Source: Alphaproteobacteria bacterium CG11_big_fil_rev_8_21_14_0_20_39_49
Lineage (GTDB): Bacteria; Pseudomonadota; Alphaproteobacteria; Rickettsiales; UBA6187
DNA: 64,000 nt
NCBI GenBank assembly: GCA_002787635.1
Contig: PCXK01000028.1
Location: 148,118-212,117, forward strand
Direction of reading: 5' to 3'
Every line of letters starts with the position of its first letter. Position 1 is the stretch's first letter. The translations under genes were made by a program, and so were the position numbers. Below are positions 4,151-64,000 of the stretch, in pieces. Below the pieces are notes generated by a model. The model saw only the letters and a program-made list of their open reading frames with translations. It searched no databases and had not been told where the DNA came from.

Positions 4151-6751
4151 ATGGACTTTAATAAATTCACCGAGCGTTCAAGGGCAGTTGTTCAAGCGGC
4201 ACAAAGCTCCGCAATTGCGGCAAATCATCAGAAATTTACTCCCGAACATCTTCTAAAAGCACTGATTGAAGATGAAAGCGGTCTTGCAGGTCAGTTGATA
4301 GTTTCCTGCGACTCTGATCCGCGTGATATTGAAGCACAGATCGAAGCCTCTATTGATAAAATGCCGAAAATATCAGGAAGCGGTTCGGGACAGATTTTTA
4401 TGGCTCCCGAACTGGCTCGTATTTTCGAAGAAGCTCAAAAGCTTGCTAAAAAATCAGGAGATCAATTCGTTACTCTTGAAAGACTGCTACAGGCAGCAGC
4501 AACGGTAAAAGGCTCTGATGTTTACGAGATACTAAATTCAAACGGCGTAACCGCACAAAAACTTCAAGCTGCTATTGATATAATAAGAAAGGGACGTACT
4601 GCCGATTCACAAACTGCCGAGGATAGTTTTGACGCTTTAAGGAAATACGCCACCGATATGACCGAGCTTGCAGAGAAAGGCAAGCTTGATCCCGTTATAG
4701 GGCGTGATGAGGAAATACGCCGTACCATTCAGGTTATATCCAGACGCACCAAGAACAACCCCGTTCTGATAGGCGAGCCGGGTGTAGGTAAAACCGCTAT
4801 ATTAGAAGGACTGGCACAGCGTATGGTAGCAGGTGACGTGCCTGAAAATATGAAAAACTCAAGATTAATGGCTTTAGATTTAGGTGCATTGATTGCAGGT
4901 GCAAAATTCCGTGGAGAATTTGAGGAGCGTTTAAAATCTGTTTTGAACGAAATAAAATCTCACGCAGGTAATATAATATTATTTATTGATGAGTTGCATA
5001 CCCTTGTTGGAGCCGGAGCCTCTGAAGGCTCTATGGACGCTTCTAACTTGCTAAAACCCGCCCTTGCCAGAGGTGAGTTGCATTGCGTAGGGGCAACTAC
5101 GCTTGCCGAATATAGAAAATACATTGAAAAAGACGCTGCCCTTGCAAGGCGTTTCCAGTCTGTATTTGTGTCCGAGCCGACAGAACAGGATACAATTTCA
5201 ATATTACGGGGAATTAAGGAAAAATATGAACTGCATCACGGTATCAGGATTTCTGACGGTGCATTGGTAGCCGCTGCTACCTTATCAAGCCGCTACATAA
5301 CCGACAGGTTCTTACCCGATAAAGCCATTGACCTGATTGACGAGGCTGCAAGCCGCCTGCGTATGGAGGTAGATAGCAAGCCTGAGGAAATAGACGAGCT
5401 TGACAGAAAAATAATCCAGTTAAAAATTGAACAGTCAGCCTTAAAGAAAGAAAAAGACAAAGCTTCAAAAGACAGGCTTGAAAAGCTTGAGTCCGAACTA
5501 TCCGAATTAGAGGAAAAAGCCTCCGACCTTAACAGTAAGTGGCAGGCTGAAAAAATGAAGGTACAAAGTATCCATAAAATTAAAGAGGAGTTGGACGCTG
5601 CCCGTTCCGAGCTTGAAATAGCACAACGAGGTTCAGATTTACAGCGTGCCGGAGAGCTTACTTACGGTATTATTCCCGATCTAGAGAAAAAGCTTGTCGT
5701 AGCTGAACAAAATAATAGTAAAAGCACTGTAAAAGAGGCTGTTACCGAAGAGGATATTGCCGCTATAGTATCACGCTGGACAGGTATTCCTGTTGATAAG
5801 ATGCTAGAGGGTGAGCGTGATAAACTACTAAAAATGGAAGAAAGACTGGGTGAGCATGTGATAGGACAGAGCGATGCGGTAAAAGCCGTTAGTGAGGCGG
5901 TACGCCGCTCCCGTGCCGGCTTACAAGATAGGAACAGACCGCTTGGTTCTTTCTTGTTCTTAGGGCCGACAGGTGTCGGCAAGACCGAGCTTACCAAAAC
6001 ACTGGCACAATTTCTTTTTGACGACAAAAACGCCCTACTGCGTGTCGATATGTCCGAATATATGGAAAAACACGCCGTAGCACGCCTTATCGGTGCGCCT
6101 CCGGGATATGTAGGCTATGAAGAAGGCGGTAAATTAACCGAATCCGTGCGTCGCAGACCATATCAGGTAATTTTATTTGATGAAGTAGAAAAAGCACACC
6201 CCGATGTGTTTAATATATTGCTGCAAGTGCTTGATGACGGGCGTTTAACGGACGGTCAGGGGCGTGTTGTGGACTTTAAAAACACCATTATTATACTTAC
6301 ATCAAACTTAGGCTCGCATATTTTGGCAGAACAAAAAGACGGGGAAGATACTTCTAAAGTTCGTAACGAAGTAATGGAAATCGTAAGAAGTGCTTTCAGA
6401 CCTGAATTTTTGAATCGTTTGGACGAAATCATATTGTTCCACCGTTTGTCACGAAAACATATGGATTCTATTGTAGAAGTTCAGATGCGAATCTTGTCAG
6501 GCTTGCTAGAACAAAGGAATATCAATATCGAACTTGATAACAACGCTAAAAAATGGCTGGCTGACAAAGGATATGACCCCGTATATGGTGCAAGACCTTT
6601 AAAACGTGTTATCCAGCAGGAAATACAGAACAAGCTTGCCAATATGATTTTAGACGGTTCGGTAAAGAATGGAGATTTAATTAAAGTTACGGTAAAAAAC
6701 AATGAGCTTTATTTTGCCTCTCCCGATAAAAACGGTGCAAAAGCTGCTTAA
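4151..6751 (+). CDS. clpB: Chaperone ClpB (Hsp100 disaggregase)
   Basis: A full-length 866-residue ClpB, the ring ATPase that works with DnaK to rescue aggregated proteins. In order: an N-terminal double Clp-N domain, AAA1 with Walker A GEPGVGKT near residue 207, the coiled-coil middle domain (about 400-530), AAA2 with Walker A GPTGVGKT near residue 605, and the C-terminal small domain. The middle domain separates it from ClpA and ClpC. Heat-shock control is usual for the family, but I see no clear sigma-32 promoter; instead the 5' region carries a palindromic repeat. It appears monocistronic. Confidence 0.98.
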
Positions 6752-8840: not shown

Positions 8841-9078
8841 CCTCTAGTCGCAGAAGAACCATACTCGTCATTCATACTATGGCTTGACCATAGTATCCAA
8901 GGATATGCATATAGTTTTTTCAATTATAGGAAATCAAGACGATGTGTAGGCTCTCGGTGAGATTACCCTATAATTGCCTTTGGCAATTCGGGTAATGACG
9001 TGACGCTTGTATCGTATATAGTATTTCTTTGGAAAACTTAGGTAATTACGCTAGGCATTATGCAAAAGTCGTAAGCTA
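8841..9078. repeat. Gap with two hairpins
   Basis: No gene is visible in 238 bp between convergent genes. A short hairpin lies at 8864-8898 (CATACTATGG...CCATAGTATCC). A core arm at 8955-9000 (GGTGAGATTACCCTATAATT ... CGGGTAATGACG) is the same type as the core of the elements at 30298-30385 and 34684-34832. Either may terminate transcription from both sides. Confidence 0.6.
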
Positions 9079-20036: not shown

Positions 20037-20081
20037 AAAAAAACCGGCTTACACAACAAATTTATTAGAAAATATTAAGGC

Positions 20082-20195
20082 AGTGTTCAATAAACATAGC
20101 TTTTGTCATGCTGAATTTATTTCAGCATCTCTAACATGACAAAAATTAAAGATTTCAGTGTAATTTTTACAAAATCTATGTTTATTTAACACTCC
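20082..20195. mobile_element. Shell-A MITE at the DUF3179 stop codon
   Basis: Ends CAGTGTTCAATAAACATAG and CTATGTTTATTTAACACT surround a TGTCATGCTGAA/TTCAGCATCT core and the tag AAAGATTTCAGTGTAATTTT on the right. The direct repeat AAATATTAAGGC occurs at 20070-20081 and 20196-20207 (12 bp shared; 8-9 bp of it may be the true duplication). The right copy contains the stop codon of the neighbouring gene. Confidence 0.85.
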
Positions 20196-20200
20196 AAATA

Positions 20201-34664: not shown

Positions 34665-34979
34665 ATCTGTATAACGAATTAGTTATAGTAAATTCTAAAT
34701 TCATATCCCATTAAGAAAAACGTCATTACCCGAATTGCCAAAGTCAATTATAGGGTAATCTCACCGAGATCGCCCTATAGTTTTCTAAAGAAAACTCGGG
34801 CGATGACGTAAATGAATTTAAAATTTACTATAGTACTCAATAAACATAGTTTTTGTCATACTGAATTTATTTCAGTATCTTCTTTGTCACGTTAGAGACA
34901 CTAAAATAAGTTCGCCCATGACAAAAAATTAAAGATTTCAGTGCAATTTTTACAAAAACTATGTTTATTAATACCTCGC
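34665..34979. repeat. 315 bp gap filled by two adjoining MITE-like elements
   Basis: A shell-B element lies at 34684-34832 (ends TATAGTAAATTCTAAATTCA and AATTTAAAATTTACTATA, core GTCATTACCCGA ... TCGGGCGATGACG). A shell-A element at 34834-34974 follows immediately (ends ACTCAATAAACATAG and CTATGTTTATTAATAC, core TGTCATACTGAA, right-hand tag AAAGATTTCAGTGCAATTTT). The A element stops about 6 bp before the M48 protease stop codon. Nothing else is seen. Confidence 0.85.
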
Positions 34980-42562: not shown

Positions 42563-42899
42563 TTCCTCTACTACATGTTGTCAAATAATCCGATTATAGT
42601 AATTGCAAGTTAATAAAAACTCTAGTGTTTTTTTATATTATACTTATTCCAAATAATTTCCGTGCGTTTGAGAGTAATTTACACGCTATTATTTATCACC
42701 TTCGCTGTGTCACCCACCCCGTCGAATGACAGGATAAAAATAATTCTTTGCAAGCTATAGTAAATTAACTTTTCAACAATGTTGTCATCCCCCGAATTTT
42801 TGTAGAAAATTATAGGGGGATCTCAGTCTAATTTTTAGAGATCCCCGAACAAGTCGGGGATTGACAATTCTAACTCTTGAAAAGTTAATTTACTATATA
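42563..42899. repeat. 337 bp gap with a complete shell-B element
   Basis: 42756-42897 has perfect 21-bp terminal repeats starting TATAGTAAATTAACTTTTCA, around the core GTCATCCCCCGAATTTTTG ... AAGTCGGGGATTGACA. The ends are compatible with a duplicated TA target. It ends 2 bp before the fadD stop codon. 42563-42755 should carry the thiolase promoter; I see no clear motif there beyond a second TATAGTAA-like stretch near 42594. Confidence 0.85.
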
Positions 42900-48880: not shown

Positions 48881-49237
48881 CTAACTAATCATTTTTTTCA
48901 TCTTTTCCCGAGATGCATAAAAACTTAATTCCAACTCACCGAACAGATCTTTGATTTCTTCAAGATTGCCGCCGTCATTTATCATTATTGAATGAGCTTC
49001 GCTCTCAATTTTATCAGCCAGATCCGATACTATTTCAGCACCGAATTCATTGGCGGTATTTTTCATGGTATGGGCAAGAGATTGAATCTTGAGACAGTCT
49101 TTTGACTCAATTCCGTTTTGTATTCCGACGATATAAATTGAGGAATCTTTAAAGAAATCATTTATTTGCGAGGAAAAGTCATCTTCTAACAATTGTTTTA
49201 TTTTAAGGTACTTTTTCTCATTTATCAAATGTAACAT
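48881..49237 (-). CDS. HPt (histidine phosphotransfer) domain protein
   Basis: A 118-residue single-domain protein. The phosphorylatable histidine is H56 in SLAHTMKNTANEFGAE, the HxxK...G pattern of HPt four-helix bundles, followed by SDLADKIESEA. Such proteins relay phosphate between a hybrid kinase and a response regulator. The nearby kinase at 50237 has no receiver domain, so the partner is probably elsewhere. It is divergent from the two-component genes. Confidence 0.85.
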   Translation of the reverse strand: MLHLINEKKYLKIKQLLEDDFSSQINDFFKDSSIYIVGIQNGIESKDCLKIQSLAHTMKNTANEFGAEIVSDLADKIESEAHSIMINDGGNLEEIKDLFGELELSFYASREKMKKMIS

Positions 49238-49590
49238 CGTTACAACATAGTAAAAACAAATATGCTTTTACCACCTCTTTAAAATAATATAAAAACTATT
49301 ATCATAAATTATACACACCAAAAGTTAACAAACAATTAACCTGAGTCAAAAACGGGCATTGCTAACTAAACATAGTTTTTGTGATTCATGTCAAAATTTC
49401 TTAGTATTTTTGTCATGCTGAACTTGTTTCAGCATCTACTCTAAAATAAAAAAGATACTGAAATAAATTCAGTATGACAAAAACTATGTTTAGTTAGCAA
49501 TGCCCAAAAACGATACCAATTAATTTAGTGACTTTAAGCTCCGACCGCAATATAAAAGATTTATACATATAATAACACAGCGATTTTAAT
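49238..49590. repeat. 353 bp divergent gap containing a shell-A element
   Basis: Between the HPt gene and the response regulator. 49355-49504 is a complete element (listed separately). The flanks (49238-49346 and 49513-49590) are AT-rich and presumably hold both promoters; no motif is clear. Confidence 0.7.
49355..49504. mobile_element. Best-preserved shell-A MITE with 8-bp target duplication
   Basis: Perfect terminal inverted repeats of about 28 bp beginning GGCATTGCTAACTAAACATA, flanked by the direct repeat CAAAAACG at 49347-49354 and 49505-49512. Inside is the palindromic core TGTCATGCTGAACTTG ... TTCAGTATGACA. Length 150 bp, no coding capacity. Confidence 0.88.
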
Positions 49591-50262
49591 ATGAAAATTC
49601 TACTTATAGAAGATGATATAAAAGTATCCGAATATATAATAAACGGCTTAAAGGAAGCAGGACATAACGTAGACAGCTCAAGGGACGGTAAAGACGGCTT
49701 ATTTCTTGCTACCACCGAAACTTATGATGTAATTATAATAGACAGAATGTTGCCTTCGGTTGACGGGCTTACAATTATACAGACAATGAGGGCTTCCGAT
49801 AACAAAACGCCTATTATTATATTAAGTGCGCTCGGAGATGTTGACGACAGAGTAAAAGGGCTAAAATCAGGTAGCGACGATTACCTTGTAAAGCCTTTTG
49901 CATTTGTTGAGCTAATGGCAAGAATAGATGCGTTAAGCCGCAGAACGTCAGGTTGTTCCGGGAAGAACCTGACCGTTTTAAAAGCAGGCGGTATTGAACT
50001 TGACCTGTTATCCAGAAAAGTAAGGGTAAATGATAAGGAGGTTGATATTCAGGGACGTGAATTTAACCTACTTGAGTATCTGATGCGAAATAAAGGCAAT
50101 GTAGTTACCAGAACAATGCTCTTAGAAGGTGTCTGGGATTACAATTTCGACCCTCAAACCAATGTTATAGATGTACATGTCAGCAGGGTACGCAAAAAGA
50201 TAGGCGATGATGGCGGAAAAATAATCAGGACGGTTCGTGGTGCAGGATATATCATCGAGTAG
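49591..50262 (+). CDS. OmpR/PhoB-family response regulator
   Basis: A 223-residue regulator. The receiver domain has acidic residues E7, D8 and D9 and the phospho-acceptor D51 (IIIDRMLP), with the conserved lysine in LVKPF. The C-terminal winged-helix DNA-binding domain has VDIQGREFNLLEYLMRN and NVIDVHVSRVRKKI. Its 3' end overlaps the kinase gene by 26 bp. Targets are unknown; the lipid-modification cluster immediately downstream is the obvious candidate. Confidence 0.96.
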   Translation: MKILLIEDDIKVSEYIINGLKEAGHNVDSSRDGKDGLFLATTETYDVIIIDRMLPSVDGLTIIQTMRASDNKTPIIILSALGDVDDRVKGLKSGSDDYLVKPFAFVELMARIDALSRRTSGCSGKNLTVLKAGGIELDLLSRKVRVNDKEVDIQGREFNLLEYLMRNKGNVVTRTMLLEGVWDYNFDPQTNVIDVHVSRVRKKIGDDGGKIIRTVRGAGYIIE

Positions 50263-51604: not shown

Positions 51605-51841
51605 AAATTAAAATCTTTTAACATATCAAAGACCTTTATTTAATGTAGCCTGTATTATAATGTTATAGTGATTTAAAATAACTTCCGTACCACAGGTTGT
51701 CATCCCCCGAATTTTCGTAGAAAATTATAGGGGGATCTTGTGCCATTTATAGAAGATCCCCGCACGTAGGCGGGGATGACATTAATAGGCTGAAGTTAAT
51801 TTCAAGGACTATAGTATTAACTTATATAAGAGTTCTTTTTT
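51605..51841. repeat. Gap with a shell-B-like element before the lipid cluster
   Basis: 51664-51813 has imperfect ends TATAGTGATTTAAAATAACT and AATTTCAAGGACTATA around the core GTCATCCCCCGAATTTTCG ... CGGGGATGACA, nearly the same core as at 42756-42897. The promoter of the lipid cluster is probably in the last 30 bp or within the element. Confidence 0.75.
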
Positions 51842-60431: not shown

Positions 60432-60809
60432 TTAATTAAATTCGTTGTAGATTATTACATCAAAGACTTTAAAAAGTAAACTGTTAGGATTTGAGGAAGT
60501 ATTCAATAAACATAGTTTTTGAAAGTTTTCCTAAACTTTTCAAATTGGATACCATGATAAGAAATTTCGGAATTGTACGTTTAATGGTTGAGTAGTTAGA
60601 ATTAGTTGTTTTTGTCATGGGAGAATTTATTTCAGCATCTCATTTTACTTTGAAAAGACCCAGAAACAAGTTCAGGGTGACAAATCAACCATTAAACGTA
60701 CAATTCAGAAAATTTTACTAAATTTTTTTCATAGGATGACAGTATAAGTAAATTAAAATTTACTATACTTAGTGAACACAGCCGTATTAACATAAACTAA
60801 ATTACAAAT
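60432..60809. repeat. 378 bp gap with nested palindromic elements
   Basis: 60499-60779 is bounded by degenerate shell-A ends (GTATTCAATAAACATAG and TTAGTGAACAC). Inside lies a shell-C element at 60562-60715 (arms AAATTTCGGAATTGTACGTT and CGTACAATTCAGAAAATTT) around the core TGTCATGGGAGA/TTCAGGGTGACA. A minimal shell-B inverted repeat lies at 60743-60767. No gene is visible. Confidence 0.78.
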
Positions 60810-63012: not shown

Positions 63013-63327
63013 CTACTTATCAACATACATGGTTTCATCTTCTGCCACATATCCGAGCAACCGCCTCGCCTGTTCGTCCAACAGGTCAGGGTCAACCGAC
63101 TCATCTCTTAGCAGGGCAACTCTGTTTTCAAGCCTCAATTTTTCAGCACTTACATAATCAAGCTCGGTCTTAGCTTCGGCAACCTTCTTTTGAATGTCTA
63201 TCATAGACAAAAGACCGTTCTCACCGCTTATTACGTGATAAAAGAAATACCCGAATACCAGCATCAGTAAGAGAGTCCCTATAGACCCTACCAAGCTTAC
63301 ACCTGAAGACGAAGAAGAATGCATACT
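63013..63327 (-). CDS. ftsB: Septum formation initiator FtsB/DivIC family protein
   Basis: About 104 residues from ATG 63327. One membrane helix (VGSIGTLLLMLVFGYFFYHV) is followed by a coiled coil (about residues 38-75) and the C-terminal LLDEQARRLLGYVAEDE. It forms the divisome subcomplex with FtsL and FtsQ in better-studied bacteria. The location downstream of enolase is the common alphaproteobacterial order. A longer frame to 63390 is unlikely, since its N-terminus adds non-conserved residues. Confidence 0.9.
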   Translation of the reverse strand, partial: SMHSSSSSGVSLVGSIGTLLLMLVFGYFFYHVISGENGLLSMIDIQKKVAEAKTELDYVSAEKLRLENRVALLRDESVDPDLLDEQARRLLGYVAEDETMYVDK

Positions 63328-63405
63328 TTGCTTTCCGTTTATTTGTGATTGATAGCTATTAATATTATGGCAGATTGATGTAAAAATCAAGGAACTAATT
63401 AGCCG

Positions 63406-63553
63406 AAGTGTTCAATTAACACAGCTTTTGTCATGCTGAACTTGTTTCAGCATCTTGTTTGTTACTTGGGAGATGCTGAAACAAGTTCAGCATGACATAA
63501 ATTCAAGATTTTAGTGCAATTTTTACAAAAACTATGTTTAGTGAACACTCCCA
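63406..63553. mobile_element. Shell-A MITE at the enolase stop codon
   Basis: Ends AAGTGTTCAATTAACACAG and CTATGTTTAGTGAACACT, with a near-perfect core palindrome TGTCATGCTGAACTTG ... AACAAGTTCAGCATGACA and the tag on the right side (AGATTTTAGTGCAATTTT). Flanked by the direct repeat AATTAGCCG at 63397-63405 and 63554-63562; the right copy contains the enolase stop codon (63556-63558). Confidence 0.88.
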
Positions 63554-63555
63554 AA

Positions 63556-64000
<445 letters not shown>

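Follow-up and report, generated by a model that had tools for sequence, protein, structure and literature searches.

The element described here lies in a window of 64,000 nucleotides (the whole stretch of DNA that was analysed), between two divergent genes. Its left neighbour is an Hpt-domain gene (48881-49237, minus strand; PF01627) and its right neighbour encodes a response regulator with a Trans_reg_C domain (49591-50262); the distances to the start codons are 109 and 78 bp. The element is intergenic, without an overlapping open reading frame of at least 100 aa, and its 22-mer end (up to 3 mismatches) was found in the window only at its two ends (0 of 100 shuffles). Rickettsia palindromic elements (RPE), another class of repeat, often stand in-frame within genes. 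The features are listed below with the evidence for each.

49347..49354, plus strand: left copy of the 8-bp target site duplication CAAAAACG (repeat comparison and flank-agreement test)
49355..49504, no strand: complete type B MITE of 150 bp with IS1-type ends (terminal inverted repeats, genome-wide family and flank agreement)
49355..49382, plus strand: left terminal inverted repeat of 28 bp, GGCATTGCTAACTAAACATAGTTTTTGT (arm complementarity; matches IS1-family ends of relatives)
49411..49438, plus strand: REP hairpin unit 1 with a TGTC tag, 8-bp stem, 5-nt loop and 3-nt tail (perfect stem)
49452..49479, minus strand: REP hairpin unit 2 in opposite orientation, giving a head-to-head dimer (match to the REP format)
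49477..49504, minus strand: right terminal inverted repeat of 28 bp, the counterpart of the C-terminal codons and the stop codon in IS1 transposases (by eye)
49505..49512, plus strand: right copy of the 8-bp target site duplication CAAAAACG (repeat comparison and flank-agreement test)
20079..20196, no strand: type A element of 118 bp, same superfamily (repeat search)
60568..60708, no strand: type C MITE in which IS1595-type ends, CGGAATTGTACGTTTAATGGTTGA, enclose a related REP dimer (flanks matching at 6 of 8 positions)

An earlier note on this DNA had described a 150-bp element with about 28 bp of perfect terminal inverted repeat and an 8-bp flanking repeat, and this description was confirmed. 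The arms, 49354-49385 and 49474-49505, show 97% complementarity along 32 nt. Pairing is unbroken over the outermost 29 nt, of which 28 belong to the element, and CAAAAACG stands on both flanks. At 150 bp and with no transposase gene, the element is of MITE size. Its predicted fold as single-stranded DNA reaches -42.3 kcal/mol, whereas shuffles give -12.3 (z = -11.7).

Inside the element, two CGTC/TGTC-tagged REP hairpins form a head-to-head dimer. We searched for REP units with a CGTC or TGTC tag, a stem of 8-9 bp beginning with AT, a loop of 4-5 nt and a 3-nt tail. Both units fit this format, each with a TGTC tag, a perfect 8-bp stem starting with AT and a 5-nt loop, and any unit of the format was present in 5 of 1000 shuffled elements. 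The available part of the report by Di Nocera et al. 2013 gives CGTC as the tag, TGTC as a variant and CCA as the tail consensus, and describes these repeats as having no dedicated transposase (PMC3733652). The window dimer resembles the published dimers in its TGTC tags, AT-led 8-bp stems, 5-nt loops and head-to-head arrangement, whereas its tails are CTA and CTT and it sits in a shell with target duplications. Among the loci examined in relatives, most shell-less REP units have the CCA tail, and dimers of the same kind without a recognisable shell were found in G014, G034 and G025. A literature search with the 26-nt hairpin sequence gave no match. A further comparison is offered by H. neapolitanus, a name that we take to stand for Halothiobacillus neapolitanus. 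Its CGTC-1 dimers likewise lie regularly inside longer palindromes, there of 41 bp, for which the portion of the text available mentions no target duplications, IS link or alternative shells (PMC3733652).

We then followed the family through the assembly of the same genome (2,303,631 bases, 31 contigs). The end GGGCATTGCTAACTAAACATAG (up to 3 mismatches) occurred 15 times in the whole assembly and the type A end GGGAGTGTTCAATAAACATAG, the "shell A" of the earlier note, 82 times; the reversed-sequence controls gave 0 in both cases. A search with the whole element yielded 69 matches, of which the best eight span 136-152 of 152 bases at 85-100% identity. The assignment of the window element to shell A did not hold, since its outer 12 bp are of type B and two families had been merged; likewise, ends of type GTGTTCAATAAACATAG, suggested there as the search target, are the type A end, and the element carries the type B end GGCATTGCTAACTAAACATAG. 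The two end types are identical at 16 of 21 bases, with the inner TAAACATAGTTTTTGT common to both, and homology extends to their inner arms (mean alignment score 9.0 vs 1.97, sd 1.19, for shuffles). Given this end identity and arm homology, A and B represent two subfamilies within a single MITE, set apart chiefly by their outermost 12 bp. For type A, no parent transposon was found. Another type B copy, C26:138299-138448, is flanked at either end by CAAGAACG, which is similar to CAAAAACG, a likeness between two copies only. A coreless 67-bp type B element (C26:84763-84829) was considered as a REP-less ancestor and set aside, because a deletion between two ATGTTT repeats in a core-bearing copy would give the same sequence (by eye).

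Other repeats were seen in the window. At 60495-60786 a type C MITE is apparently nested in an older type A-like element, with GGAAGTATTCAATAAACATAG on the left and TATACTTAGTGAACACAGCC on the right. A dispersed palindrome, GTTGTCATCCCCCGAATTTT...AGGGGGATCT, at 42781-42850 and 51696-51765, shares the GTCAT...ATC frame and has a different stem, and an inverted pair of 50 bp that is 98% identical, ACGTCATTACCCGAATTGCC...GTAATCTCACCGAGA, at 8952-9001 and 34720-34769, represents a further repeat family.

The target duplications provided the evidence for movement. Over 28 A/B elements of the genome, restricted to two-ended elements with summed end mismatches of at most 9, flank agreement peaked at 8 bp, with a mean of 0.643 against 0.323 for a null of mismatched left/right flank pairs. 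At 9 to 12 bp it was absent in the same 28 elements (0.381 at 9 bp vs 0.314). Twelve of the 28 matched at 7-8 of 8 flank positions, where 0.15 were expected, and seven, the window element included, had perfect 8/8 flanks; the other 16 matched at fewer than 7 of 8. IS1-family target duplications are about 8-9 bp long, and the 8 bp found here fall in that range. The flanks of three IS1 elements of relatives, chosen for their clean ends, also agreed at 8/8, and an automatic scan of 20 stretches returned an 8/8 duplication in only two (L184 and L195). In nine relatives' loci no Hpt gene was found beside an orthologue of the response regulator, so there was no empty site to align. The earlier view that the element is a MITE that moves by transposition is supported by the 8-bp duplications, together with IS1-family elements with matching ends in relatives.

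GGnnnTG is the end pattern of IS1. A degenerate end pattern (up to 1 mismatch) was found in 23 of the 343 genomes of the order, the element's own included, with 1 hit in 1 genome for the reversed control. The order is Rickettsiales, as a G198 locus matches Rickettsia australis with 100% identity along 3,021 bases. In G293, two such ends bound an IS1 element of 850 bp with the 8-bp duplication TCGTTAAG; they are identical to type B at 18 and 19 of 21 bases, and the two enclosed open reading frames match the NCBIfam IS1 model NF033558 at positions 1-111 (E 1.6e-24) and 148-199 (E 3.8e-8). In G150, the end GGCATTGCTAACTAAAGATAG, identical to that of the window element at 20 of 21 bases, stands directly after an IS1 C-terminal open reading frame; for the split frames, the IS1 models score below their curated cut-offs. 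Insertion sequences with such ends are therefore present in relatives, with 18-20 of 21 bases identical and beside frames that match NF033558. The last IS1 codons run into the inverted repeat, as MFS-stop in G293 and IFS-stop in G150, and the right end of the window element spells bases corresponding to these codons (by eye). The element is like IS1-family insertion sequences and their derived MITEs in its GGnnnTG ends and 8-bp duplications, and it differs in its interior, which is a REP dimer and not an internal deletion of IS1.

IS1 transposase matches were found in 107 of the 343 genomes of the order. The genome of the window, searched as the earlier note had proposed, has no match to the DDE transposase families PF00872, PF03400 or PF12762, and IS256 (PF00872) was on this ground rejected as the parent. 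Its single NF033558 match is a lone N-terminal half (C15:63253-63564). It was also rejected as parent, because this zinc-ribbon/HTH protein of 154 aa lacks a DDE domain and IS1-like ends are missing from its flanks. The 154-aa gene, with a zinc ribbon and a helix-turn-helix, lies at C15 about 63196-63660 (L181 1397-1861) and is possibly a domesticated regulator; N-terminal-only matches to NF033558 were also seen in G002, G020 and G024. The terminal inverted repeat pattern gave 0 matches in viral contigs. As the search of the genome, whose 31-contig assembly could conceal a repeated IS, gave no functional transposase of either IS1 or IS1595, we infer the enzyme from the relatives. The suggestion that a transposase acts in trans, or that the parent has been lost, fits these results. 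Because the genome has only the IS1 half and none of PF03400, PF12762 and PF00872, the most probable parent is an IS1-family element that either no longer exists in the genome or is missing from its assembly.

The same end type also occurs in named genomes of Rickettsia, Bacteroidia, Methylobacter and a few others (44 stretches). Among 14 two-ended candidates from other genomes, a set that omits the L129 pair (3 mismatches) and the G202 element (L150), four had flanks matching at 7-8 of 8 positions and one at 9 of 9. These results indicate that IS1-type MITEs with such ends are widespread. REP cargo is carried by several but is not obligatory, because a REP-like unit was present in only 2 of 5 Rickettsiales candidates and in 0 of 9 others. 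In Candidatus Methylobacter favarea (NZ_CADCXN contigs), which contributed 14 of the 44 end-bearing stretches, most ends lie about 105 bases from a contig end, which suggests a multi-copy IS that broke the assembly. MITECca01 of Cardinium is a comparable MITE of an intracellular symbiont, with ends matched to a parental IS; its IS982 parent resides in the same genome, and the available part of the source mentions no REP cargo (PMC9769881).

A third shell, type C, encloses the same kind of dimer. Its end GGAATTGTACGTTTAATGGTTGA occurs 39 times in the genome and is identical at 22 of 23 bases to the ends of an IS1595-family transposon of 1.95 kb carried by G002, a genome from a different (sister) genus of the same family; that transposon carries an 8-bp duplication (PF12762 E 6.9e-38, NF033547 E 1.7e-63). 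Flank agreement of ten type C elements peaked at 8 bp, with 5 of 10 matching at 7-8 of 8 positions against 0.11 expected. Among 59 core copies from the genome, 16 were A/A, 6 B/B, 8 C/C and 6 without shell, the others being one-sided, variants or hybrid; these proportions are biased, because the loci were gathered partly through shell patterns. One element, C26:33968-34117, is a hybrid, with its left half of type B and its right half of type C. The right half has the AGACCCTGAA second hairpin, a form carried by 6 of 8 C/C copies and by none of the A/A or B/B copies compared (by eye). The hybrid shows no clear target duplication (4/8, by eye) and so need not have moved as a unit.

The clear IS1595 ends of shell C, around the same REP dimer and with 8-bp duplications, raise the alternative that the window element belongs to another 8-bp-duplicating DDE family such as IS1595, with one IS1595-type enzyme moving shells A, B and C; the sequence GGAATTG also fits GGnnnTG. 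We consider this improbable. End scans of 15 IS1595 loci showed no B-type ends, whereas the IS1 elements of G293 and G150 have them, and IS1595, present in 7 of 36 genomes searched, is absent from the genome of the window; it was accordingly rejected as the parent of type B.

A fixed intergenic hairpin, that is, a terminator or regulatory palindrome that does not move, would account for the very strong predicted fold and for the position between the divergent hpt and response-regulator genes. Such a hairpin is hard to reconcile with the 8-bp duplication and with many dispersed copies at unrelated sites that have duplications of their own. In addition, no terminator-like site was found in the element, and its promoter-like sites were not in excess (4 vs 2.6 expected), which makes this reading very improbable. 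Equally hard to credit is mobilisation of a REPIN-like element by a RAYT (an IS200-like tyrosine transposase). In its favour, REP-like hairpins form an inverted pair in the core, and a single RAYT-like gene is present in the genome (166 aa, PF01797 E 5.2e-6). However, the combination of a GTAG tag with a RAYT gene flanked by the same repeat was not found: the tag is TGTC, the gene is flanked by a different hairpin, GACGGGGTTTGTAACCCCGTC, and target duplications are a signature of DDE enzymes that IS200-like tyrosine transposases are not known to leave. The RAYT-like gene lies at C10 about 5621-6233 (L207 1622-2234), with inverted GACGGGGTTTGTAACCCCGTC hairpins of a different REP type at its bounds.

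Taken together, we regard it as likely that the window element, a MITE of the IS1 family, is non-autonomous and was inserted in trans, carries a REP dimer as cargo and belongs to a family with exchangeable shells. The ends, the target duplication, the family structure and the near-identical IS1 ends of relatives were observed directly. An IS1-type DDE transposase acting in trans would have cut at the GGnnnTG ends and generated the 8-bp target duplication; this enzyme would be an IS1 transposase that has presumably been lost since or is missing from the assembly. The REP hairpin dimer would have ridden along, and the same dimer would also have been packaged in type A shells (IS1-like ends) and type C shells (IS1595 ends). 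That shells can be exchanged is suggested by the one element that joins a B left half to a C right half, together with the shared core; the most likely route for such an exchange would be recombination, or else gene conversion, within the REP dimer that the shells have in common.

MITEs and REP dimers are both common; the window element as such is a MITE of the usual sort, and IS1 ends on a MITE are nothing new in kind. What we regard as a novel variation is a REP cargo that IS1 and IS1595 shells have in common. Literature searches over titles and abstract openings gave no report of REP dimers inside IS1 or IS1595 MITEs, and none joining "IS1 family", "MITE" and "Rickettsiales". What stands out is that a single REP dimer family occurs within three kinds of transposon end, two of which match different DDE transposase families, IS1 and IS1595, and that there is a hybrid. 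This bears on an open question about REPs, namely how CGTC-tagged repeats move without host transposase genes flanked by them. Given that the available part of the published description reports no dedicated transposase for CGTC REPs (PMC3733652), IS1/IS1595 MITE shells are a plausible vehicle for them, and REP dimers boxed in such shells offer a testable answer. More tentatively, CGTC-type REP dimers might spread in general as cargo of swappable DDE end modules, the boxes being swapped via the dimer. The small palindromes of Rickettsiales genomes can bear clean transposition scars and, if this broader proposal is true, one hairpin family can borrow whichever transposase is present at the time.
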